Below are positions 44,711 to 57,649 of a stretch of 64,000 bases of DNA, piece by piece. The notes under the pieces were generated by a model. The model ran no database searches. It was not told the origin of the DNA and worked only from the letters and a program-made list of their open reading frames with translations. Position numbers and translations under genes: made by a program. Position 1 is the stretch's first letter. Each line of letters opens with the position of its first letter. Source of the stretch: Paludisphaera borealis (GTDB lineage: Bacteria > Planctomycetota > Planctomycetia > Isosphaerales > Isosphaeraceae); NCBI RefSeq assembly GCF_001956985.1, contig NZ_CP019082.1:6324001-6388000 (forward strand), given 5' to 3'.

Positions 44711-44784
<74 letters not shown>

Positions 44785-44851
44785 CTCAGAAGTGCCGACA
44801 GACTCAGGAGTTGCGGCGATCTCGTGAAATTGGGTTTCTTGCCCCGAGGAA

Positions 44852-45066
44852 CCTTTCACAGGATTTCACAGACCCAACACCCGGCCGGGTCTCGACCGAT
44901 TCGACGAAAGACAGAAGAGGGGCGAGCCACAATCCCATGTGGCTCGCCCCTCTTGTCGTTTCGGCGGAGCGAGACGGAAGCCCCGGTTCACGGTCCTTAC
45001 GGTCGTCCGCCAAGTCGAGGGCGGATCGAGCCGCCCCCCCTCGCCGGCCTTTCACAGGATTTCACA
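44852..45066. repeat. 19-bp direct repeat flanking the integrase 3' end
   Basis: The sequence cctttcacaggatttcaca occurs at 44852-44870 and again at 45048-45066, where it covers the last codons and stop of the integrase. On the minus strand both copies can encode Cys-Glu-Ile-Leu-stop. It may be an attachment-type duplication or the tail of an earlier integrase copy. Confidence 0.7.
44916..44953. terminator. 15-bp perfect hairpin after tRNA-Arg
   Basis: The arms agaggggcgagccac / gtggctcgcccctct enclose an 8-base loop and are followed by ttgtcgttt. It is the likely terminator of the tRNA-Arg transcript and may also isolate the integrase. Confidence 0.75.
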
Positions 45067-46486
45067 AGGACGGCCCGGCTCTCCACGGTGCTGAAGGTCC
45101 GCCGTGAGCCGGGCGACGAGCCCCCAGTCCTGGCGGGCGACGGCCTCCTGGAGACGCTCGACCAGGAGGTCGATCTCCACCTCCTCGTACCCGTAGCGCC
45201 GGGCCACTTCCGGCGGGAGGCTGGCGGCGATCCGCCGGTACGTCCGGTTGCTCTTCGCCCGCATCTCCTCGTCCGACTCCTTCACGTAGCTCGTCAGCAT
45301 CACCGACACCCCCAGCCGGGCATCGGCGGCCACCTGCCGGTTCAGATCCTCCCCCGTCCGGGCGTACTGGAGGCTCGTCTTGCGGAAGACGTGGAGGTAG
45401 GCCCGCCCGCCCGGAGCGTCCTTGGACCAGTCCTGGATGCGCTCGTAGAACCAGTCGCCGAGTTGGTCGGGGTCGAACTCGCCGGAGACCTTGGCCGCCA
45501 GCCAGGGGCGAAGCCCCCGCTGGTGGAATCGCCTGAGCTGATCCTTGTAGATCCCGAAGACGTAGGGGCTATCGGTCTTCAAAGCGAGGAGTTCCCGGTA
45601 CAGGCCCTCCGGGATGCGGAACCACTTGTCGATGCCCCACTTGCCGACGATCTCGAAGTGGCGCTCCTCGCCCACGGGCTTCAACTGGTCCCACCTCAGC
45701 CCCATCACCTCGCTCTTGCGCCCCCCAGGACCAGAGGCAGACCTTGGCGATGGCCGGGGCGACCGTCATGCCGGGCCACCTCCGCCCCAGGTGATCCAGC
45801 AGCGAGATCAGCTCCTCGCCGCTGAATTGGCGGATCTTGCGGTCGAAACCCCTGATCCAGGTGAACTGACGCCAGGGGTTCTCCGAGAGCAGGCGGTCCT
45901 CGGAGACGACGCCCCGGACGCACTTCTTCCCGGCGTTCCGATTGGCCCGCTCGAACGCCGCCTGGAGGGCCACCGACCACTTGATGACCGTGTTGGCGCT
46001 GAGCGGCTCGACCTCCTTCCTGCTGTTCGGGTACTGGGACCGCCAGTTCTTCGGCCGCTTCAGGGCCTCGTGCTGGAATCGCTCGCAGTCCTCGGGCGTG
46101 GCGGCGGCGATCGGCTCCAGGCCGCTGATCTGCCGGAAGGCCGAGATCGCTTCGAGGCAGGCGACGAGCGACTTCTCCGCCCTCCGCCGCTCCTCCGGCG
46201 ACTGCTTCTTGGAGAAGTGCCGACGCTGGATCTCCTCGAATTCCTCGTCGGTCGGTATGGCGCAGGTTTGGCTGCGACGATGGCCACCGTTGCGGATCAT
46301 CTCCTCGGCGACGAGGACGGCCTCGCTCGGGTCGGTCACCCCGGTGGACTTGCTTGCGACCAGGCCCGGCCAGTAGACGTACCAGGATCGCCTCGTCCCG
46401 GTCGGCGGGGTGAGCGTGACGGTGATCGGCGAGCCGTCGATGACGACCGTGACCTTCTGTTTCTTCAGCAGCGGCTTGCGTGGCAT
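45052..46486 (-). pseudogene. Tyrosine recombinase/integrase, frameshifted
   Basis: Site-specific integrase of about 477 residues if one base is removed. The N-terminal half (from MPRKPLLKKQ at 46486) has the arm/core-binding regions and reads to KVCLWSWG. A run of six G (plus-strand C at 45721-45726) then throws it out of frame; with five G it continues GRKSEVMGLRWDQL, where the first Arg is the catalytic Arg I. The other half holds HVFRKTSLQYA (His and Arg II region) and LTSYVKES with the likely nucleophile Tyr. All key residues are intact, so the damage is a single indel. It could be a recent mutation, slippage-based control, or a sequencing error. Confidence 0.88.
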
Positions 46487-46552
46487 CCCTCGTCCCCCCC
46501 ATCGATCCGGCGTCATTTCGCCCGGCGAATCGTATCCGCACGTCCAGTCGTC

Positions 46553-47356
46553 TCATCGGGACTCGATCCACTCGTCGATCGATTCCCGGTGGAACTTCCA
46601 CGGTTTGCCCCGACCGGTCCCGGCCACGATGCACCGCCGGGGGATGTCGCCGTTGCGGGCCTGGTCGGCGATCCAGGTCGTCGTGCAGCCGAGCCGGCGG
46701 GCGACGTAAACGGAATCCACGACGCCGGGTGGCGGCGGGGCGAGGGCGTCGGCGATCCGGGCGATGCTCCGGGCCATCGCTTCCCACGCCGTCGTGGGGG
46801 TGGGGGACCGTCCGGCGGCCTCTTCAAGGGCATCGAGTCGTTGGAGCATTGCCGCCACCGTCCCCTCATAAGCCGGGGCCGTGCCGACGACTCCGCCGAT
46901 CACCAGGCCGGCCTCGGGCACGGACCGACCCATTCCTTCCCATTCGGACCGGGCCGCCGATGCCAGGATGACTTCCGCCAGGGCGTCGGCGACCGCCCCG
47001 AACGAGTGGTCGTCCATGAGGTCTCGGAGGTCATCGCACTCGTAACGCCCCAGGGTGGCCCGGACGGCTCGGTACTCGTGCCCCCGGCGGACGAGTTCGC
47101 CCTCCAGGACGCCCCGAGCCAGGATCGCCCGTTCGTCGTCGTTCCCGGCGAGGCGGTACACGGCCTCGGTCAGGCCGCCCTCGGGTCGGTACGAACGCTC
47201 GGAGTCGCCCTTCTCGGCACAGACTTCGAACGCCGAGGCGTGGGTGATGATCGCCCCGGATTCGATATACGCCGCAAACCGGTCCAGCTCGGACTCGGCG
47301 GGGACGGGCTTCCCGAGCTTGGCCAGTCCGGCGAGCCCTCCTGCGACTTCGGTCAT
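46553..47356 (-). CDS. Helix-turn-helix (excisionase-like) protein
   Basis: A 267-residue protein starting at ATG 47356 (ribosome site ggagg). The last 55 residues form a MerR/excisionase-like DNA-binding fold: DSVYVARRLGCTTTWIADQA, then GRGKPWKFHRESIDEWI. The N-terminal 180 residues are Glu/Ala-rich and unrecognised. It sits about 65 bases upstream of the integrase on the same strand, the usual place for a recombination directionality factor, but the size is larger than typical excisionases, so it may also be a regulator. Confidence 0.7.
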   Translation of the reverse strand: MTEVAGGLAGLAKLGKPVPAESELDRFAAYIESGAIITHASAFEVCAEKGDSERSYRPEGGLTEAVYRLAGNDDERAILARGVLEGELVRRGHEYRAVRATLGRYECDDLRDLMDDHSFGAVADALAEVILASAARSEWEGMGRSVPEAGLVIGGVVGTAPAYEGTVAAMLQRLDALEEAAGRSPTPTTAWEAMARSIARIADALAPPPPGVVDSVYVARRLGCTTTWIADQARNGDIPRRCIVAGTGRGKPWKFHRESIDEWIESR

Positions 47357-47518
47357 GGTGTCCTCCGATCCTTGTTCGGCCGCCCGAGCGGGCGGCATAT
47401 CCCTTTACGCCTGGTCTGCGATTTGTAAAGTCGCCGACGGGGGACGGCGTTCGCCGTGAAGGAGCGGGCATCGCCGGCCGTGCCCCGTCGGGATGAGCGG
47501 TGCCATCGGCATGTGCGG

Positions 47519-47974
47519 TTACAGCGATTCCCAGAACCGCCGCCTGTCCTCGGCCTCCCGGCGTCGAGCCCGCACGTAGGCGTCGTGCTCGGGCGACCCG
47601 AGGGAGAAGGAGAAGACCTTCCCCGAGCCGTCGATCTCGGCGGGCGTCGGCGGGGCGACATGCCTCCGGGCCTCCCAGTACCGGCGGCACTTCTCCAGCT
47701 GCGCCTCCGTCAGCGAGCGGGAGTGCCCGTTGGCGTCCACCTTCACGAAGAAGTACGGCCCGTAGAGCCCGCACCCGTTCGGCCGGTCATCGAGGCCGTG
47801 GTAGTCGTCGGCGCACACGATGAAGACGCCGGGGCCGACGCCGACCATATCGAACGACCGGCTGCCGATCGCCTCCTGCCATCCGTCGCAGCCGTCCTTG
47901 ATCTCCGCCGGGTAGGGCTCTCCGCCCACCGGGACGATCAGGACCACGATTCGCTTGATGCTCTTCTTGCCCAT
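47519..47974 (-). CDS. DUF3846-like mobile-element protein
   Basis: A 151-residue protein starting at ATG 47974 (gaggag upstream). Residues 6-100 resemble DUF3846, a small domain common in phage and plasmid genes: VVLIVPVGGEPYPAEIKDG, GVGPGVFIVCADDY, and the typical end SRSLTEAQLEKC. Function unknown. A charged Arg-rich helix ends the protein. It lies between the HTH gene and the acidic protein gene, all read leftward. Confidence 0.6.
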   Translation of the reverse strand: MGKKSIKRIVVLIVPVGGEPYPAEIKDGCDGWQEAIGSRSFDMVGVGPGVFIVCADDYHGLDDRPNGCGLYGPYFFVKVDANGHSRSLTEAQLEKCRRYWEARRHVAPPTPAEIDGSGKVFSFSLGSPEHDAYVRARRREAEDRRRFWESL

Positions 47975-48238
47975 AATCATGTCTCCTCGGCACGTACCTT
48001 CATCGCCAGGCGGGGTGGCCAAAGACCCCGCCGGGGCGGACCGGGCTCGAATAAGGCTGGGGAGGGACATACCTCCCCCGCCCGCCCGGATGCACGGCTC
48101 CGGGACGCCTCGGGTGTCGTTGCTGCCTTGCCGACTCGGCGGCCCCTATCACCGCCGGTGCGGGTCAGTCCTTGGCCCCGGCCCTGGGGAGATCGCCGGC
48201 CCCGGCGGTCCGGTCGTCCTCCGAGATGATCGGGTCGA

Positions 48239-48915: not shown

Positions 48916-49677
48916 TCAGAAATTGAGCCAGAGGCACTCGACACGCTCTACCCGGCCGACCCCCTTCATGCGGATCGACACCGGGCGGGAGACGACCCGC
49001 CAGTCGGACAGCCAGCGGGCGTAGATGGGGTTGGCGTAGCCCGAGAGGGCGACCTTGCCCCGGAGCTGGAGGATGTGGCGGCACAGCTCGACGTGCTGCT
49101 CGTCGGACAGGCCGAAGCGGCCGTAGATCTTGCGGCCGACGCCGACGTAGGGCGGGTCCAGGTAGAAGCAGGTCTCGGGCGAGTCGAGGTCGTGCAGGTG
49201 GTCCAGGCAGTCGCCCGAGACGATCCTCACCCCCTGGAGGCGGAGGTGGACATCGGAGAGCTTCACGATCCCCCGGTCCCACCAACCCTGCTGGTCCTTC
49301 GTCGAGCTGCTGTCGGAGTACCCGCCGCACCCGCCGTGGCCCATCCGGCGGAGGATGTACGTCAGGGCGGCCAGCTCCAAGCCGGAGCCCCAATCCCCGG
49401 CCCGCAGGCGATCCCTGGCGTCCCGCCAAGTCTCGTAACGCCAACGGAGGGGGGCGAGCCTCCGGGCGAGGGCGTCCGCCTTGTCCCGCACCGCACGCAG
49501 CAAGGCGGCCTGGCCGGGGTTCCGCTCGATCAGCACCTCCTCGGACGACCGGGACTTGGCCAGCAGGACGTTGGCGGCCCCGGCGAACGCCTCCACGTAG
49601 CGGCCGTGCGGCGGGAGCTGGGCGACGATCCACCGCCGGATCGTCGCCTTGCCGCCGGGATGCCGTGTCAGGATCAT
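48916..49677 (-). CDS. D12-class N6-adenine DNA methyltransferase
   Basis: A 253-residue Dam/MboI-type methylase. Motif I is VEAFAGAANVLLAK and the catalytic motif IV is DPPY in CFYLDPPYVGVG; GGKATIRRWIVAQLP is the usual N-terminal region. The target is probably GATC-like but is not certain. The ATG overlaps the upstream stop as ATGA, so it is translationally coupled to the 258-residue gene. No partner restriction nuclease was recognised, so it may be an orphan methylase of the element, acting in protection or in replication timing. Confidence 0.92.
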   Translation of the reverse strand: MILTRHPGGKATIRRWIVAQLPPHGRYVEAFAGAANVLLAKSRSSEEVLIERNPGQAALLRAVRDKADALARRLAPLRWRYETWRDARDRLRAGDWGSGLELAALTYILRRMGHGGCGGYSDSSSTKDQQGWWDRGIVKLSDVHLRLQGVRIVSGDCLDHLHDLDSPETCFYLDPPYVGVGRKIYGRFGLSDEQHVELCRHILQLRGKVALSGYANPIYARWLSDWRVVSRPVSIRMKGVGRVERVECLWLNF

Positions 49678-50450
49678 CCCGCCACCTCCGTCGCCGAGGG
49701 CTGCGTGTCGATCCGGGCCATCTCGCCGTTGCGGAGCCAGTAGTCCCGGACGGCCCGAGCGATCACCTCGCCGTGCCCGGCCTCCTCCTGGGCGGCCAGG
49801 TGGTCGAGCAGCTTCCAGCTCACCAGGGGCAGGGCGACGGGCAGCGCCTCGGCGGCGTCGGCGTAGAGGTCTTCCAGGCCCCGCAGGAAGGTCTCCCTGG
49901 GGCGATCGTCCACGGGCTCTCCCTTGTCTCCGCCGTCGGCCGGGCCGGTGGCGGCGATCGTGCGAGGAGCCGGGGGCTCTGCACCGGCGGCGGAGTGGGT
50001 CGGCTTGACGACGCCCTCCGCCGGCCCCGAGTCGTCGGGGGTGGCGGGCGACCCGGCATCCTGGGCGGCGAGATCCTCGAACTTGGGCCGGGGGTAGATG
50101 CCCAGGTCGTAGTACGCCTCCATCTTGCCGGGGTAATTGTCGAGGGCCTCGATGCCCCCGGCCCGGACGAACAGGAGCCGGCGGCGTCGGAACGCCTCCT
50201 TCGGGTAGCCCTGGTCCTTCGCCCACTGGGTCCACTTGCCGCCGAGTTGCTCGTACTTGAGCTGGGCCGCCGCCCCGAAGCAGTACTCGTGCTGGAGGCT
50301 CGTCCGCTCCAAGCCGCCGATGGCCCGGTCGTGTTGCCGCATGTAGTCGAGGAGGCGGCCCTCGTCCCACGAGGCGTGCGGCATGTCGAGGCCAGGCGTG
50401 GTCGCCCCGGCGTCGTCCCGGTTGATCATGCTGTCGTTGTCGCTGCCCAT
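49674..50450 (-). CDS. Element protein coupled to the methylase
   Basis: A 258-residue protein starting at ATG 50450. Residues 35-110 (EYCFGAAAQLKYEQLGGKWT, then AFRRRRLLFVRAGGIEALDN) look like a helical phage/plasmid DNA-associated domain, loosely recalling DUF3102, followed by a Pro/Ala/Asp-rich linker and a helical C-terminus (LPLVSWKLLDHLAAQEEAGH). Its stop overlaps the methylase start by four bases. It is divergent from the 897-residue gene, with about 190 bases of promoter region between containing two copies of a 16-base motif. Confidence 0.6.
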   Translation of the reverse strand: MGSDNDSMINRDDAGATTPGLDMPHASWDEGRLLDYMRQHDRAIGGLERTSLQHEYCFGAAAQLKYEQLGGKWTQWAKDQGYPKEAFRRRRLLFVRAGGIEALDNYPGKMEAYYDLGIYPRPKFEDLAAQDAGSPATPDDSGPAEGVVKPTHSAAGAEPPAPRTIAATGPADGGDKGEPVDDRPRETFLRGLEDLYADAAEALPVALPLVSWKLLDHLAAQEEAGHGEVIARAVRDYWLRNGEMARIDTQPSATEVAG

Positions 50451-50542: not shown

Positions 50543-50624
50543 ATCGCTACCGAAGTTGCAGTTTGCCTGAATCATCCTTGAAAACCGGTGCCTTCTCGTC
50601 GAGGATAAATCGCTACAGAAGTTG
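50543..50624. repeat. Two copies of a 16-base motif in the divergent promoter region
   Basis: The motif atcgctaccgaagttg at 50543-50558 and atcgctacagaagttg at 50609-50624 differ at one base and are 66 bp apart, in the gap between two divergent genes. They may be operators for the HTH protein encoded just downstream. Confidence 0.65.
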
Positions 50625-50642
50625 GTTTTCGAGGCTCGATCC

Positions 50643-53336
50643 GTGGATCGATATCGCAAGCGACGGTTCGCCAGGAACCTTGACGCCCTCCTCACGGCCC
50701 GGTGCGTGACCCGCAAGGAGGCGGCGGCCGAGGCCGGGGTTCCGTACCAGTGGCTCCGTCGGGCCGTGGCCGACGGGATCTCCCGGCCGGACAAGCGGAG
50801 CCGGGGGCATCTGGAGGCCCTGGCCAACTACCTGGGCCTGACCGGCATCGACGGCTTCTGGGAGCGAGACCTGTACGTCCCCCCGCCGCCGTCCTCGATC
50901 AAGGACGAGGCCGATCGCCTGGCGGAGTTGATGCGGGAGTACGCCCTGGACGCCGGGGCCGACGACCCGCTGCTGGGAGCGATCGTCGCCCGGATGGAGC
51001 AGGTCGTGGGGGAGCGGCGAGCGAGGCGGAAGAAGCTCGCCGAAGAGGAGGAGGGCCGGAGGCAGGCGGAAGAAGAAGCGAAGGCGAGGCGGAGGAACGC
51101 CGAGGAGCTGGACGACCGGCTTGCCGCCGCCTGGATGACGACGGGCGGCCCGAAGGGGCTGGCCGCCTGGGAGGAGCGGCGGGAACGGATGCGGCTGGAG
51201 GAAGAAGAGCGTCGTCGGGTGCGGGACGAGCAGGTCCGGTCCTTTCGTGACGATTGCGAGCGGATGCGGGCGGCGGGCCAAGTACTCGACTTCTTCCGCC
51301 TGGAGGTCTTGGCGAGATGGAAGGCCGTCGGGCTCCCCCGACTGGAGGAGGTGGAGGTCACGGTCGCCGAGGTCGCCTCGCTCGCCGAGCGACTCGGCCT
51401 GAAGACGATCCGGGGGATCGCCCCCCACGCCTCGGACCTCTGGCTGGCGAAGTACGCCCAGGCCCTCGGGACGACCCCCGATCGGGCACGTCGCTCCATC
51501 CAGCAGGCCGTCTCGGACGCATTCGGGGTCGGGTGGGACTCGCCCGGAGAGGTCCACGACGCAGCCTCGGTCGGCGACTCGGCCTCACATGCCGCAGCAT
51601 CCGATGTGGTCCACGGCCCGCCCCCCTGGTGGCGGGACGGGTACGTGCCCCCGTCCTCGATCGAGGACGGGGCGGGGAAGCTCGGCGAGGAGATGCGCCG
51701 GTACGTGCTCCTCGTGGGGGAGGAGGACGCCGCCCTCAAGGGGATCGTCGAGCAGGTCCGGGCCGCCGTGCGGTCGCATCATGGCCCCACCGCCCCGGAG
51801 AGGGAGGCGGAGCCAGGCGTTCAACCGCCGGTCCGACCGCAAGGGGCGGGCGAAGTGAGGATGAGCGTGGCCGAAAGGGTTGCGGCGGCCAAGCGGGCGA
51901 TCGCACGGGGCGGGTCGATCGATCCCGGAAGGGAGGGCCGAGGCGGGCCGACGCCGACCGGGGAGGCGGCGGTGCGACCTCCCTCGCCGTGGCCGGAGCG
52001 GATCGGCGTGGAAGTCGCCCGCCAGGCCCTCGGCGAGATGGAGGCCAGGTGCCTCGGGCCGTGGCGGACCTACGGCCTGCCCCGGATCGATGAGGTCGTG
52101 GTCACGCCGGGAGAGGTGGCCGATCATGCCGGCCTCCTCCGCATCCCGGCGGAGGATGTCGGGGGCTTCGCATTCCGGGTGATCTGGCTGCCCAGGTACG
52201 CCCGCCTCCTGGGCAAGAACAACGACGAGGCGATCGATTTCATCAGAGACCATATCGCCGCCTGTGTGCCTGGGAGCCGGGTGGAGACGGCACCGCCTCA
52301 AGCCGGGCCAGGCGGGGATGGGGTCAAGCCGGGGCCGAGCGAGGAGGAGGCACGAGCCCGAGAGGAAGCGAGGCCGCTGGTCGCCCGTGTGGTGGCGATC
52401 CTCTCCCCCGAGCAGGCGGAGCACTTCTTCCGGGGCTATCCTTCGCCCGCACGGGCCGAATCCGACCTGGAGAACGAGCTGCTCAATCGCCTATCCGGCG
52501 GCCGGTTCATCGGGGACGACAAAACCCCGCAATCGCCGGACGAGGCGGTCCGTGGGCTCGTCGCCGAGATCGTCGAGGACTTCGAGAAGTCACGTCACGG
52601 CGAGGTCGGCGATGACCTCTTGCAGCCGTTCAGCGATCCCGAGGCGGTGATCGCCCCCCGCAAGTCGCTCGATCACCGCCACGGCGACGACCCCTCGACG
52701 GACGACGACCACGATGAGCGACCTCCGGTCGGGATCGCCCTGGAGGCGGAGATCGCCCGGTCCGTCGCCGAGGATCGGGAGTCGCTGGAGCGGAGGGTCA
52801 ACGACTTCTGGGAGATGCTGGGCGACACCCCGCTGCCCGGCGGCTCGGGCACCTACCGGGACCGCAGCGAGGGGCTCGGCGACCGGATGACGATCGGCTC
52901 GGCCGCCCTTCGTGCCTGCGGCGACGACCTCGGCAAGGCGCTGAGATGGCTGACCGACCGGGTGGACAGGGCGATCAAGGATGAGGAGTCGGCGGCGAGG
53001 CGGCACTCTACGCCCAGGGCCGAAGAGAAGGCCCCGCCGCCTGCGAAGCGTCCCGTGCGGAAGAAGGGGCCGGTCGTGACGGACCCGGAGGACATCCGGG
53101 AGGCCGTGGTGGAGGCACATCGGATCGGCATGCCCACGGACGAGATCATCGCCGACCTGCGAGGGCGTCCCGACCTTCCCGATTGGGTCCGGCGGGCCAA
53201 GGGCTCGGTCCTCCGGGGCGAGATCGGGAAGATCGTCGCCCGTTATGAATCGGAGTTGGAGGACGAGGCCGCCCCGGACGAGTTCGACGCCCAGGCCGGC
53301 GACGACAGGCGGAATTGGGAGCGGGAAGACGATTGA
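50643..53336 (+). CDS. Large HTH protein with duplicated modules
   Basis: An 897-residue protein (numbering below counts from a TTG at 50622; the GTG at 50643, with gaggc upstream, is preferred because the TTG lies in a repeat). Residues 14-80 form a helix-turn-helix domain (RKEAAAEAGVPYQWLRRAVA). A module of about 45 residues opening with YVPP-SSI occurs at 85-129 and 341-384. A second of about 72 residues (LARWKAVGLPRLEEVEVTVA versus GPWRTYGLPRIDEVVVTPGE) occurs at 227-297 and 470-545. A highly charged coiled coil (130-205) separates the first pair. The rest is acidic and Pro-rich. I recognise no family; it may be a DNA-binding regulator or partition-type protein of the element. Confidence 0.75.
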   Translation: MDRYRKRRFARNLDALLTARCVTRKEAAAEAGVPYQWLRRAVADGISRPDKRSRGHLEALANYLGLTGIDGFWERDLYVPPPPSSIKDEADRLAELMREYALDAGADDPLLGAIVARMEQVVGERRARRKKLAEEEEGRRQAEEEAKARRRNAEELDDRLAAAWMTTGGPKGLAAWEERRERMRLEEEERRRVRDEQVRSFRDDCERMRAAGQVLDFFRLEVLARWKAVGLPRLEEVEVTVAEVASLAERLGLKTIRGIAPHASDLWLAKYAQALGTTPDRARRSIQQAVSDAFGVGWDSPGEVHDAASVGDSASHAAASDVVHGPPPWWRDGYVPPSSIEDGAGKLGEEMRRYVLLVGEEDAALKGIVEQVRAAVRSHHGPTAPEREAEPGVQPPVRPQGAGEVRMSVAERVAAAKRAIARGGSIDPGREGRGGPTPTGEAAVRPPSPWPERIGVEVARQALGEMEARCLGPWRTYGLPRIDEVVVTPGEVADHAGLLRIPAEDVGGFAFRVIWLPRYARLLGKNNDEAIDFIRDHIAACVPGSRVETAPPQAGPGGDGVKPGPSEEEARAREEARPLVARVVAILSPEQAEHFFRGYPSPARAESDLENELLNRLSGGRFIGDDKTPQSPDEAVRGLVAEIVEDFEKSRHGEVGDDLLQPFSDPEAVIAPRKSLDHRHGDDPSTDDDHDERPPVGIALEAEIARSVAEDRESLERRVNDFWEMLGDTPLPGGSGTYRDRSEGLGDRMTIGSAALRACGDDLGKALRWLTDRVDRAIKDEESAARRHSTPRAEEKAPPPAKRPVRKKGPVVTDPEDIREAVVEAHRIGMPTDEIIADLRGRPDLPDWVRRAKGSVLRGEIGKIVARYESELEDEAAPDEFDAQAGDDRRNWEREDD

Positions 53337-53841
53337 ATCGCCCGCCGTCGAGAGGAAGCAGCAGCGCCGTCAGGCCAGCGAAGGGATCGAGGCGAGGCCC
53401 GCCGCCGGGAGGACGTGGCGTGATGGCATGGCACGCCCGGCGGCCAGTCCCGTCCCAGGTTTATTAGCCGACGGGACATCCGAGTACAAAAGTGGTACGG
53501 GAGAGGGCCTTCACCTTGGTGGGCCTCGGCCGATCGGGAAATCGTTATCAGCGGCCGGGGCAACGGGATGGGGGCCTGGGCGAAACCCTGGGGAAAGCCG
53601 GCGAGGGGAGTGGTCCTGGACCGAGGACGGGTGGTCCCTCATGAAGCCGTCGGTCCCCGCTCGGAAGGCGGATCTCCGCCACGACGCAGCTCATTCCCGT
53701 GCTGAAGGATCGAGAACCTTCGCCCATGCGTCTTCGTCTTTCCTTGCCGCAGGCAAGGCTTCCCTTCCAGTCCCCTGCGAGGGGCATCGGGGTCTTGAAG
53801 GGAAGTCCTGAGCGAAGTCATAAGAGTAGTCTTAATTGTGG
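53337..53841. other. Non-coding stretch of the element
   Basis: About 500 bases between the large HTH gene and the iteron-like repeats. The open frames across it lack protein-like composition. I see an AT-richer region near 53805-53840 (gtcataagagtagtcttaat) immediately beside the repeats, as expected for a melting region, and nothing else definite. Confidence 0.5.
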
Positions 53842-53920
53842 CAAACAAGACGCATCGGGCGTCAAACAAGCCGCATGCCGTGCCAAGGAAGCCGCATCGG
53901 GAGCGTCAAACAAGCCGCAC
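53842..53920. repeat. Four iteron-like direct repeats
   Basis: Copies of the 14-base motif caaacaagccgcat occur at 53842-53855, 53863-53876, 53884-53897 and 53907-53920, with at most two changes each, at periods of 21, 21 and 23 bp (about two helix turns). An AT-richer segment lies at their left and a replication-initiator-like gene ends 40 bases to their right. This is the layout of an iteron origin. Confidence 0.7.
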
Positions 53921-53935
53921 GGGCCGGTGCGGCTT
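53912..53935. terminator. Hairpin formed with the last iteron-like repeat
   Basis: The stem aagccgcac / gtgcggctt (9 bp, 6-base loop) uses part of the fourth repeat as its left arm and is followed by cctttac on the plus strand. It lies just past the stop of the leftward initiator-like gene and may end that transcript. Confidence 0.6.
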
Positions 53936-53960
53936 CCTTTACACGTCAGCTTGCCGAACA

Positions 53961-54956
53961 TCAGCACCGGACCTGCCTGGCGACCTCCCTGACCTTATAG
54001 ATGAGCAGGTCCACGGAGGGGCGTCCGGGCAGCTTCGCATTGGCCCTGTGCTCGGCCTCGGCCCTGGTGAAGGCGTCGAGGAATCCCCCGGTCTGGAAGT
54101 AGAACCAGATCTCGTGGGGGCCGGGGAAAAGCGGCAGGGTGCCGATCAGCAACTTGGTGATGTCCTCGTCCGTGTACCTCGCATTCGCCAGGGTCTGCCG
54201 GTGGGCCAGGATGGCGGGGATGGCGACCTCGATGTCGTCCTTGCGGCCACGCCCTTCAAGGCTCTGCCGGACGATCTCCGCCAGGTCGTACACCGGCTCG
54301 CTGGCGGCGGGCCGAGCCCCGCCCCTCGGCCCCTTCCGGGCCGTGGTCGCCTTGCGGTCCCGCCAGAGTTCGAGCGTCTCGACGGACGAGTAGCCGAGGG
54401 CGAAGCCGTGGCCCGTCGGGTTCACGAGGTCGAGCTTCTGGAGCAGGGCGAGCCCGGCCGCAACCGTCGGGCGGCTCACGCCGAGCAAGACGGCCAGGCC
54501 CGCCCGAGTCTGGCCGTGGAGCTTTCCCTCCCAGCGGGCGAGCGAAGCCATCAGGAAGTACAGGTCGCTGGCCGATTGGGTCAGTCGGACCGCCTCGCCC
54601 GCCGCCTTGCGCCTGACCCCCGGTGCGATCGTGTAGATCCTGTAGGTGGCGAGCCGCCGGTGCCAGTCCCCGTCCTTGCCCTGCTTCCAGGCGAACCACT
54701 CCCGCCGATCGCCGGTCGGTTCGATCGCCTCGTAGCCGCCCTCCGCCTTCCGGGCGAGCCCCTCGGCGATCAGCGCCTCCAGGTGCCTGGGGACGCCCCG
54801 AGCCCTGCCGGTCCGCTCCCCGGACCGGCCCCGCTCCAGCCCGGTCCTCCTGGAGATCAAGGCCGGGCGGACCGGCCTCCCGTCTCGGGCCTTGTAGGCC
54901 AGGAACGAATAGACCTTGACGACATCGTTGGAGAGCGGGCACTTCTTCCCGGTCAC
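53961..54956 (-). CDS. Replication-initiator-like winged-helix protein, 5' end cut by IS
   Basis: 331 residues from a GTG at 54956, but the frame stays open and protein-like further up (KENQGFFKGKRFVPRVV) to the IS boundary at 55014, so the true start may be lost. Residues 10-60 (LSNDVVKVYSFLAYKARDGR) and 130-190 (SASDLYFLMASLARWEG, then GVSRPTVAAGLALLQKLDLV) look like two winged-helix units, as in plasmid and phage replication initiators. The C-terminus contains YTDEDITKLLIGTLPLF. The role is supported by the iteron-like repeats directly downstream. It could instead be a plain transcription regulator. Confidence 0.65.
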   Translation of the reverse strand: MTGKKCPLSNDVVKVYSFLAYKARDGRPVRPALISRRTGLERGRSGERTGRARGVPRHLEALIAEGLARKAEGGYEAIEPTGDRREWFAWKQGKDGDWHRRLATYRIYTIAPGVRRKAAGEAVRLTQSASDLYFLMASLARWEGKLHGQTRAGLAVLLGVSRPTVAAGLALLQKLDLVNPTGHGFALGYSSVETLELWRDRKATTARKGPRGGARPAASEPVYDLAEIVRQSLEGRGRKDDIEVAIPAILAHRQTLANARYTDEDITKLLIGTLPLFPGPHEIWFYFQTGGFLDAFTRAEAEHRANAKLPGRPSVDLLIYKVREVARQVRC

Positions 54957-55013
54957 GACCCTCGGGACGAATCGCTTCCCCTTGAAGAAGCCCTGATTCT
55001 CCTTCGGGCCTAG

Positions 55014-55891
55014 GTCGTGTGGACAGCAGATAGGCGTTGTGGGCTAATGACGGCGACGCTTCACCATCACGGAGGGCCTGTCATGCGCCGCCGCCACGAG
55101 ATCTCCGACGCCGATTGGGACCGGATCAAGGACCTCCTGCCGGGGCTTCCCGGGGGGCACGGCGGGGGCGCCCAGGACAACCGCCGGTTCGTCGACGCCG
55201 TGCTCTGGATCGCCAAGACCGGCGCGCCGTGGCGCGACCTCCCCGAGCGGTTCGGCAACTGGAACAGCACCTGGCGGCGGTTCGACCGCTGGTGTTCCAA
55301 GGGGGTCTGGGCCCGGGTCATGACCGCGTTGCAGGACGAGGACCTCGAATGGCTGATCCTCGACTCCACGGTGATCCGCGCGCATCCGGCGGCGGCCGGC
55401 TCGAAAAAAAGTGGGACGGCTCCGGCGGACACGCCGAGCAGGCCCTCGGCCGCAGCCGAGGCGGATTCGGGACCAAGATCCACGTGGCGGTCAGCGGGCT
55501 CGGACTCCCCACGCGACTGATCCTGACGCCGGGCCAGGCCGCCGACTCGCCCCAGGCCGAGGCGCTGATCGACGGCCTGGCGACGGAAGTGGTCGTCGCC
55601 GACAAGGGGTACGACAGCCGTGCCGTGGTCGAGGCGATCGAATCGCGCGGGGCCAAGGCGGTGATCCCCTCGCTTCGCAACCGCAAGATCCAGCGGCCTT
55701 ACGATCGGGATCGCTACCGCGACCGAAACCTGGTCGAGCGGTTCTGGCACAAGGCCAAGCAGTACCGCCGCGTGGCGACGCGGTACGACAAGACGGCCAA
55801 GAACTTCCTCGGATTCGTTCATGTGGCTTCGATCATGATCCTCTTGCGATAGCCCAGAACGCCGCGGTTCACCAGCTGCTGTCCACACGAC
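55014..55891 (+). mobile_element. IS5-family insertion sequence (complete)
   Basis: An 878-bp element with perfect terminal inverted repeats gtcgtgtggacagcag (55014-55029) and ctgctgtccacacgac (55876-55891), flanked on both sides by CTAG (55010-55013 and 55892-55895). Since CTAG is a palindrome, the duplication may be CTAG (IS5 group) or TA with 17-bp repeats (IS427 group). Matching flanks mean a simple, fairly recent insertion. Confidence 0.92.
55083..55852 (+). CDS. IS5-family transposase made by -1 frameshift
   Basis: DDE transposase of about 256 residues in two frames. The first part (MRRRHEISDADWDRIKDLLP to ILDSTVIRAHPAAAGSKK) carries the first catalytic Asp in LDSTV. At seven A (55404-55410) a -1 slip continues in the second frame as KKWDGSGGHAEQALGRSRGG, then VVVADKGYDS (second Asp) and RNLVERFWHKAKQYRRVATR with the catalytic Glu. 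Programmed -1 slippage at an A-run is known in this family, so the element is probably active rather than broken. Confidence 0.9.
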
Positions 55892-56108
55892 CTAGCAGCA
55901 CCGTATGGAGTTTCACGCTGTCCCGCATGGGGATCATCACCTCCCGTCTGACGTGGTCGAAGCCGTCGTTCGTCGGCTCGAACTTCGCGGGGGTCTCACT
56001 CGGCAGGTCTTTATAAGTTGCGGGCGGCTTGGCCTCATCCTGCGCCGAGGCCGTCCCGGCCAGCGCGGCCAACCCGAGCAGGAACGCGCGAGAACAGGCG
56101 CCCGCCAT
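55892..56108 (-). pseudogene. CocE/NonD-type hydrolase, N-terminal stump
   Basis: Only about 70 codons remain, from ATG 56108 (gagaggg upstream): a signal peptide (MAGACSRAFLLGLAALAGTA, cleavage near SAQ) and GFDHVRREVMIPMRDSVKLH, the start of an X-Pro dipeptidyl-peptidase-like alpha/beta hydrolase (CocE/NonD family). The gene is cut at the IS at residues HTVLL; the remaining 500 or so residues are absent on the other side. This marks the chromosome side of the element's right boundary. Confidence 0.8.
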
Positions 56109-56254
56109 GAACCGATCCCTCTCGGACCTCATGGTCTTGCCGTTCCGACCTCTCATGGGGGCACACTCCATCCGGGTAAGCTGGACCAGACGTCTGGGCG
56201 TCACGGGGACCTCTTGCCGTCGTCTCGGAGCATGGTACGGCGGGCGCCAACGGA

Positions 56255-57649
56255 CTACCTGTCGGATTCACCGGCTGTTGCGACCGGCCTGTGCCGGGGG
56301 ATCTCGGCCTTGAAATCGCCGAGGCTGACCCACTTCAGGCGCCTGTCCAGGTCCACCTCGGCGACCGCGACGGTGCCCCAGTCCTTCGCCTGAGCGATGA
56401 TCTCGCCGGTGTGGTCGAAAACGGCCGAGATCATCCAGTTGTGCGAGACGTCCTCGTACGTGCTGCTGACGACGTAGACGTGGTTCTCGCACGCGCGGGC
56501 GCGGGCGAGCAACGGGTTGCAACCCCAGACCGGCCAGGCGATCACCTCGGCGCCGTGGTTGGTCAGCTCGCGGGCGACCTCGGGGAAGAAGCCGTCGTAG
56601 CAGACCATCATCCCGACCTTGCCGAAGCGGGTCGAGAAGACGGGATAGCTGGAGCCCGGCGCGATGCCCCCTTCGACCTCGCCGCGCGGGAGGCAGACCT
56701 TGCGGTACTTGCCGACGATCGCGCCATCGGGGCCGATGAGCACCGCGACGTTGTACACGAGGTTCCCGTCTCGCTCCAGCAGGCCGGCCACGATGTGGAG
56801 GTCGTGCCGCTTCGCGAGCCGGCCGAAGTACTCGGTGGACGGGCCGGGGATGGGCTCGGCCACCTCCTGGTACTTCTTGCCCAGGCCCAGGTAGGTCAGC
56901 GTCTCGCCGAGCACCACGAGATCGGCCTTCCGCCGGGCGGCCTCAGCGATGAACGGCTCGTACAGCCGGCGGTTCTCCTCCGGCGTGTTGCCGCCCGACG
57001 GCTTGAAGTGGACGGTGGCGAGCCGCACCGTGCGCGGCGAAGGCGCCGTCGTTTCGCTCAGGGAAACGCCGCGCCATCGCACCTCGCCGTCCCGGGCCCA
57101 TCGCAAGTGCAGTTCGACGACTGCCTGGGTGGCGTGCGCAGGGGCTCGGTAGGTGTCGGAAACTTCGGCCCAGCCCCGGCCGTCGTCCCCCCGCGTCGTG
57201 GGGAATTCCGTCTCGGCCATCGGCGTCGCCCCCTGGAGGTAGCCGCTGACGGCCGGCTCGTCGAGCGGGACGTGCTGGCCGTTCGCGTCTCTCCAGTGGA
57301 GTTCGGCCACGACGCTGCGTCGGGGGACCTCCACGCCCTTCGCCTGGTAGCGCGCGTCGAAGCGGTAATGGCGGCCCCCTGTCACCGGAAAAGCCTTCGT
57401 CCAGCAGCCGTCCACACCGTCGCGCGGCCCGGCCTTGATGATCAGCACTGCTGGACGGCCCGGCTCGTCGCCGGGCTCGCATGCGAATTCGGGCCGGATC
57501 TCGTCGCGCGGCGCGCCGGTCGACCAACCCGCGTCGTCCGGGACCTCGACAGCCGCGCTCGGCGGCGGCGCTGCGGCAACGCACGCGCCCACCAGCGCCG
57601 CCGCGAACAGGCGACCAGGAAGTCGGCCGCGCGTCATCGATCTCATCAT
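56255..57649 (-). CDS. Exported nitrilase-superfamily amidohydrolase
   Basis: A 464-residue carbon-nitrogen hydrolase. The catalytic triad is Glu249 (LGETLTYLG), Lys317 (YRKVCLP) and Cys350 ([10 protein letters not shown]). A signal peptide occupies residues 1-33, and residues 38-200 form an extra beta-rich domain ([20 protein letters not shown]) resembling carbohydrate-binding or jelly-roll modules, before the hydrolase domain at 207-440. Planctomycetes carry many of these fusions; the amide or nitrile substrate is unknown. It stands between the truncated CocE gene and decayed DNA. Confidence 0.92.

Follow-up and report, generated by a model that had tools for sequence, protein, structure and literature searches.

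An iteron-like repeat array beside a candidate winged-helix initiator gene, in a decayed element probably inserted at a tRNA-Arg gene of Paludisphaera borealis

Initiators of the Rep_3 type have a double winged-helix layout, and Rep_3 iteron plasmids (pSK639, R6K and RK2 type) carry 22-bp repeats, as does the locus described here. In pSK639, five 22-bp repeats are reported upstream of rep (PMC5703833). The HTH_36 (PF13730) initiators include pPR9 Rep and phage replication proteins; pPR9 Rep is described as joining a PF13730 N-terminus to a pSK41-type C-terminus and as supporting replication (PMC5703833). The RepA_N initiators of pSK41 and pTZ2162, together with the RepA of PLE, combine a winged-helix DNA-binding domain with a small helical C-terminal domain and use iterons, an organization like that predicted for the protein examined below. 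PLE of Vibrio cholerae is described as integrated into the chromosome and as having a RepA_N initiator and an iteron origin of its own (PMC7145576, PMC5703833). The pSK41 origin is reported to lie inside the rep gene (PMC5703833), whereas the candidate origins considered here lie outside the gene, either 3' or 5' of it. PLE is also reported to use a large serine recombinase (PMC7145576), a point on which the present element appears to differ.

A comparable arrangement was found in the window, which is the whole 64-kb stretch of P. borealis DNA that was analysed. An earlier note on this DNA had proposed an iteron-like array next to an initiator-like gene, and the following features are involved:

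53780 to 53839, no strand assigned: AT-richer 60 bp on the gene-distal side of the array, a candidate unwinding region.
53838 to 53924, minus strand: four direct iteron-like repeats with a 22-nt unit and spacing of 21/21/23, from repeat comparison and a periodicity scan.
53924 to 53942, plus strand: a fifth repeat copy in inverted orientation, placed between array and stop codon, from repeat comparison and folding.
53961 to 54956, minus strand: the candidate replication initiator, with 331 aa when read from the first listed start, from the open reading frame, family scans and predicted models.

The direct copies of the 22-nt unit start at 53838, 53859, 53880 and 53903 and show 73-82% identity to the first copy. 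The 14-base cores fall within 53842-53920, and the core TGCGGCTTGTTTGAC is the array repeat read in the direction of gene 53961-54956. In a scan for four 16-mers spaced 20-24 bp apart, the array scores 79, the top 20-24-bp periodicity of the window, with the runner-up at 61; in 60 dinucleotide shuffles of the whole window the best score was also 61. The four 14-base repeats at 21-23 bp described in the earlier note were confirmed, as were their distance of 40 bp from the gene (last scored 16-mer to the stop of the minus-strand gene at 53961) and the AT-richer stretch beside them, whose GC content is 0.48 over 60 bp compared with 0.66 in the next 240 bp. The count of four holds for the direct copies, while the inverted fifth copy had been missed. 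That copy and the adjacent direct copy pair as a hairpin just 3' of the gene, with a z of -2.1 that was equalled in 8 of 200 shuffles. Occurrence of the repeats in unrelated intergenic regions, which the note had named as a refutation of its proposal, was not found: a 121-bp query spanning the array has a single match in the 7.65-Mb genome, and the core AAACAAGCCGCA occurs three times in the genome, twice inside the array.

The product of the neighbouring gene lacks a full-length family match and matches MarR_2 at E=0.0077, below the cut-off. AlphaFold2 gave a model of the whole protein with pLDDT 78.9 and pTM 0.48, which was read as two winged helices and a helical C-terminal domain; the C-terminal part modelled alone gave pLDDT 86.3 and pTM 0.75. 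From the weak family matches and the predicted structure we read the product as winged-helix-like with two such domains, in agreement with the winged-helix gene that had been proposed.

Structural comparison of the second winged helix returned 4pql, 4pt7, 5kbj and 4ro3 at Z 7.9-8.4 (rmsd 3.4-4.2, 92-101 aligned), which are the four longest alignments among the best 50 rows, with Z values tied with those of CRP and MarR regulators. For the C-terminal domain, 4pqk came first (Z 7.3, rmsd 3.5, 95 aligned), tied in Z with seven other rows comprising AAA ATPases, Rubisco activases and a designed protein, and such Z values are common for helical models. We take 4pql and 4pqk to be domains of a RepA_N-type plasmid initiator. 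In the published description, 4pt7 and 5kbj are RepA_N plasmid initiators and 4ro3 is the RepA of the PLE satellite (PMC7145576). Solved RepA_N and PLE domains thus appear among the structural matches of both window models, with Z values that do not stand out, and both domain models point weakly to a RepA_N-type initiator with its domains in the right order. A known initiator fold was not established: Foldseek with the protein and domain models returned no match at E<=0.001, and the structural matches are tied with unrelated folds.

At the sequence level, the profile of the C-terminal domain gave nothing convincing against the PDB, and the family scans of the window protein gave no match to any replication family. 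RepA_N (PF06970) is absent from its families at E<=1, Rep_3 (PF01051) has no match at E<=1, and RPA (PF10134) has no Pfam match. The protein differs from RepA_N initiators in lacking PF06970 and in having two predicted winged helices, and from HTH_36 initiators in lacking an HTH_36 match.

Homologues were sought at several taxonomic levels. The window protein has one match in its own genome and matches in 4 of 148 relatives, itself included, and a single-protein scan of genome contigs found no relatives. With a profile of four members, matches came from 15 of the 397 genomes of the class at E<=1e-8, from 2 of the 45 of the taxonomic family and, at E<=0.001, from 14 of the 392 of the phylum, 11 of these being weak partial matches; each count includes the genome of the window. 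With a 16-member profile, 20 of 397 class genomes were matched at E<=1e-6 in 23 places, again self included. Identity between the window protein and the other 15 aligned members is 19-26%. No homologues were found on plasmid records or viral contigs, and the four contigs tested for circularity have no terminal overlap.

The relatives bring family matches that the window protein lacks. At E<=0.05, HTH_Crp_2 is matched by 11 of the 16 aligned members, MarR_2 by 9 and HTH_36 by 8 (best 2.6e-9); RepA_N (PF06970) is absent among the best 25 of 30 families matching these members. At the same threshold, PHROG families named 'replication initiation' match 6, 6, 4 and 2 of the 16 (the window protein none), O-like families 5 and 2, and DnaD-like families 4 and 1, all of them sitting among 24 matching families that include regulators. 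The homologue of the same genus, L097, reaches 25.2 bits with HTH_36, for which the cut-off is 25.

Arrays of the same kind were then sought in the 400-bp flanks of each homologue, as four phased copies. Among the first 16 loci, 10 have an array that beats all 200 flank shuffles and is the top place of its own locus; among the loci found after the scan was written, the top array adjoins the gene in 4 of 7. A score of at least 58, a cut-off picked after the scores were seen, was reached at 14 of 23 homologue loci compared with 17 of 1607 background windows of the same loci, and a score of at least 60 at 12 of 23 compared with 8 of 1607. The corresponding binomial probabilities are 2e-18 for all 23 loci, 1e-12 when the four loci known before the scan was written are left out, and 7e-6 for the seven found later, values that treat the loci as independent although L038, L039 and L041, and likewise L098 and L099, have related repeats. 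The flank test gave no array at nine of the 23 loci (L037, L043, L044, L047, L049, L050, L101, L102 and L103); L050 has an array ~550 bp upstream of the gene, outside the 400-bp flank.

The repeat sequence itself varies by locus, being TGCGGCTTGTTTGAC in the window, GGTGGATAACTG in L036, GTGATGCATTTTTTCC in L038 and GTGACAAAAGTTTTCCC in L040, while the period and the proximity to the gene persist. Such similarly spaced but different repeats beside many distant relatives point to a family of replication modules. The proposal of an iteron-like array next to an initiator-like gene is therefore strengthened by arrays of the same period beside diverged relatives, several of which match phage replication-initiation families. 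L097, in genome G004, is the only homologue among five genus mates. It has four copies like TGCGGCTATGGCCCAC located 21 bp past the stop, with the TGCGGCT core, the orientation and the position as in the window, and yet the two proteins are barely alike in pairwise comparison (E=0.022). The hairpin arrangement seen in the window recurs in L036, with a z of -5.6 and 0 of 200 shuffles as good, and no such hairpin was found at L097 when folding was compared with shuffles (z -0.3).

In the window, L036 and L097, which all belong to one taxonomic family, the array lies 3' of the gene, and in the other 11 of 14 it lies 5'. At all 14 loci with arrays, AT content is higher in the 60 bp on the distal side of the array than in the 240 bp that follow (mean GC 0.42 and 0.55), a comparison of composition only in which the next 240 bp may include coding DNA. 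The orientation of the repeat relative to the gene-to-flank direction is also kept: only 12 of 2000 random assignments were as good, and 59 of 91 pairs compare better in the same orientation, a statistic to which related locus pairs contribute. By eye, the L036 repeats contain TTATCCACC, noted in connection with DnaA boxes.

Clusters of neighbouring genes shared among the first 16 loci include an AAA-like cluster near 8 loci (weak Pfam match in 2 of 4 members scanned), a methylase cluster near 5 loci (weak ParB_N match in the one member scanned) and an integrase cluster near 4 loci (Pfam matches above the cut-off in two, below it in one and absent in one). L097 and L036 carry ArdC-type genes, and L097 also has a methylase and a weak AAA match. 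Two further repeat sets were observed near homologues. At L003:904-1102 there are five 32-nt repeats at 41-42-bp spacing (~2x21), ~120 bp beyond the iterons of that homologue. At L090:2551-2670 four CCGCCAGGCGAGC-like repeats at ~35-bp spacing start past the AT-richer flank, ~140 bp from the array.

Judged from sequence comparison, the array probably supplies the iterons of a replication origin whose initiator is, or once was, the winged-helix protein encoded next to it, and both probably belong to an element inserted at tRNA-Arg and now decayed. The main rival is a regulatory operator, with the winged-helix protein as a transcription factor controlling itself or a neighbour. The winged-helix domains do match the HTH_Crp_2, MarR_2 and GntR families and CRP, MarR and GntR structures, the 5' position of 11 of the 14 arrays is where an operator would also sit, and iteron arrays can themselves autoregulate, as reported for pSK639 (PMC5703833). 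This explanation is nevertheless unlikely, since the arrays of the window, L036 and L097 lie 3' of the gene, ~1 kb from the promoter, the order of gene, array and AT-richer flank is kept on either side of the gene, and the extra C-terminal domain and the relatives' replication-family matches misfit a simple regulator.

Partition sites, too, can consist of short phased arrays next to the gene of a DNA-binding protein. A centromere-like site bound by the neighbouring protein would suit the methylase family near 5 of the first 16 loci, with its weak ParB_N match in one member scanned, but no ParA- or TubZ-type partner was found among the window proteins scanned, and the AT-richer flank and the replication-family matches of the relatives point to an origin, which makes partition a very improbable function. 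Chance or local duplication combined with a terminator hairpin, with no protein-binding function, would account for the terminator-like hairpin that the inverted copy forms with the direct copy next to it, just past the stop codon, but is hardly credible when 60 whole-window shuffles stay at or below 61 against 79 and the same layout recurs at homologous loci where the repeats differ in sequence.

The reading as a replication origin places the array in an element with the following further features:

44711 to 44785, plus strand: tRNA-Arg (acg), probably both the integration site and the element's left end.
45052 to 46516, minus strand: a recombinase-like gene, recognized by eye, over two overlapping frames (45569-46516 and 45052-45708).
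46553 to 47398, minus strand: an HTH_17 protein, excisionase-like (phrog_66, E=0.0013).
47519 to 48070, minus strand: a DUF3846 protein, by family match.
48916 to 49710, minus strand: a D12-class adenine DNA methyltransferase of the element, by family match.
50622 to 53336, plus strand: a large protein, 904 aa from the first TTG, upstream of the array (AbiEi_4, E=0.01, below the cut-off).

Rightward of the tRNA-Arg gene, the recombinase-like gene is thus followed by the HTH_17, DUF3846 and D12 methyltransferase genes, by uncharacterised proteins, and by the array and its gene. By eye, the recombinase-like gene appears to encode a putative tyrosine recombinase. In Pfam and the other family scans, no family, integrases included, matched either half or the joined frames, and the joined frames have no PDB relative. 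The C-terminal half compared with four integrase-like proteins near the relatives gave a probability of 0.3%, and neither half had a match in plasmid records. Among planctomycete metagenome assemblies, one has a gene 78% identical to the C-terminal half, and another has a gene 82% identical over residues 87-214. For both of these relatives (L127 and L128, with only the last part in L128), the alignment continues unbroken into this same tRNA-Arg(acg) gene, in keeping with site-specific insertion at that point. Insertion of the element at tRNA-Arg(acg) is probable.

The DNA from the gene to the end of the window yielded neither a right-hand attachment site nor a second tRNA end. A 52-bp, 94% fragment of tRNA-Arg(acg) lies at window-equivalent 70364-70415 (L063), to the right of nrdAB- and metE-like genes; these labels, like those of the ABC and CocE-like hydrolase genes below, are our own reading of the translations. 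The fragment was rejected as the partner site, as nrdA and nrdB lie between and occur in the same order at another place in G002. With this order kept elsewhere in G002, nrdB and nrdA look like host genes. Partial tRNA-Arg(acg) copies are also present in G004 and G005, and the tRNA gene looks like an insertion hot spot. The ABC gene to the left of the tRNA is found in all five genus mates, and in the matches of three of them tRNA-Arg is directly behind it. Within the genus-mate stretches, DNA from beyond the tRNA has no match at E<=1e-8 except tRNA copies, and for this reason no clean boundary of the element could be drawn. At the protein level, the element proteins match only a distant transposase in these stretches, and initiator homologues outside the genus.

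The copy in the window is damaged on its right-hand side by one further feature:

55010 to 55895, plus strand: an insertion sequence, presumably of IS5 type, with a DDE transposase and CTAG at both ends, abutting the 5' end of the initiator gene.

This insertion sequence has two further copies in the genome at 99.7% identity. The initiator frame stays open through LGPKENQGFFKGKRFVPRVV up to the insertion sequence, and residues 18-57 of the L036 protein match the extended frame (45%, E=2e-8). These data suggest that the original N-terminus, with its start, was probably lost to the insertion sequence. On the other side of the insertion a hydrolase frame is cut, and a related hydrolase copy that is open through the cut point lies ~190 kb away (L074). 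When 1500 bp on each side of the other two insertion-sequence copies were compared by BLAST, neither the missing initiator start nor the remainder of the hydrolase was found. A segmental duplication was also observed, in which window 55896-57649, to the right of the insertion, shares 96.6% DNA identity over 1534 bp with L074; the duplicated segment comprises the 5' part of the CocE-like hydrolase gene and a carbon-nitrogen-hydrolase-like gene.

The element in this genome is a decayed remnant, with a frameshifted recombinase-like gene and an insertion sequence at the initiator start. The further suggestion of the earlier note, that the element can replicate after excision, finds no support for this copy, given the split recombinase frames, the insertion sequence at the 5' end and a right-hand attachment site that was not found. 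Replication after excision may hold for its relatives.

P. borealis itself offers a native comparison. The genome of strain PX4 is reported to consist of a 7.498 Mb chromosome and the plasmids PALBO1 and PALBO2 (PMC5352709), and the assembly used here has replicons of 7,497,544, 111,833 and 42,519 bp. In PALBO2, the same scan gave a score of 93 to an array of GTACCCCAAAGTGCC lying ~140 bp upstream of a gene that matches RPA weakly (E=0.0068). At L112:18369-18580 of this plasmid, upstream of a weak-RPA gene, TACCCCAAAGTGCC is present in six exact copies and in variant forms, at ~22-bp and wider spacing. These repeats are likely the iteron origin of a native planctomycete plasmid. The PALBO2 array resembles the present one in its 20-24-bp period and lies upstream of its gene. 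The RPA (PF10134) initiators of Isosphaeraceae plasmids are a different protein family; profile comparison of the window protein with the PALBO2 protein gave a probability of 0.2%. The rep gene of PALBO1 matches RPA clearly; in the two 20-kb pieces of this plasmid that were scanned, scores peaked at 59-60, all away from that gene, next to which nothing was found. One of the two plasmid rep genes therefore has such an array, and the PALBO1 result slightly lowers our confidence in the origin reading. Apart from the plasmids, a chromosomal gene with a strong match to RPA plasmid initiators (PF10134) was observed near the end of the chromosome contig (L117, G000:C1:7490402-7491091).

If the origin reading is correct, the initiator would bind the four helically phased copies, and its C-terminal helical domain, which may resemble that of RepA_N-type initiators, would help to open the AT-richer flank and load the host replisome, recruiting helicase or primase. 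The inverted copy may cap the rep transcript or serve as a further binding site. The module would work like HTH_36- or RepA_N-type replicons inside an element inserted at tRNA-Arg(acg), which may have excised in the past, before the insertion sequence replaced the start of the initiator and whatever lay beyond it.

A literature search, with most subscription journals outside its reach, found no account of iteron origins in integrated planctomycete elements. Model planctomycete strains are described as lacking a replicative plasmid in a 2025 methods paper, which also reports that common E. coli or broader-host-range replication machineries fail in Planctopirus limnophila (PMC11958385); a ColE1-type plasmid is reported to be replicative in Blastopirellula marina (PMC4910669). 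The less damaged relatives, in which gene and array fit within ~1.5 kb, are candidate native origins; in L097 and L036 the initiator start is free of an insertion sequence. Should initiators and their binding sites be diverging in step, as the loci suggest, the rules of iteron recognition would be testable over many natural pairs.

More broadly, we would give an even chance to the view that planctomycetes carry a so far unnamed family of integrative elements that bring their own iteron replicons, and that such islands exist, or existed until recently, as excised and replicating plasmids or phage satellites. Such elements would share a fast-diverging, HTH_36/RepA_N-like double winged-helix initiator, with the origin on either side of the gene and often with an AAA-like ATPase, methylase, integrase or ArdC gene nearby. 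If this is true, planctomycete chromosomes hold islands with replicons that are unnamed in the family databases used here.
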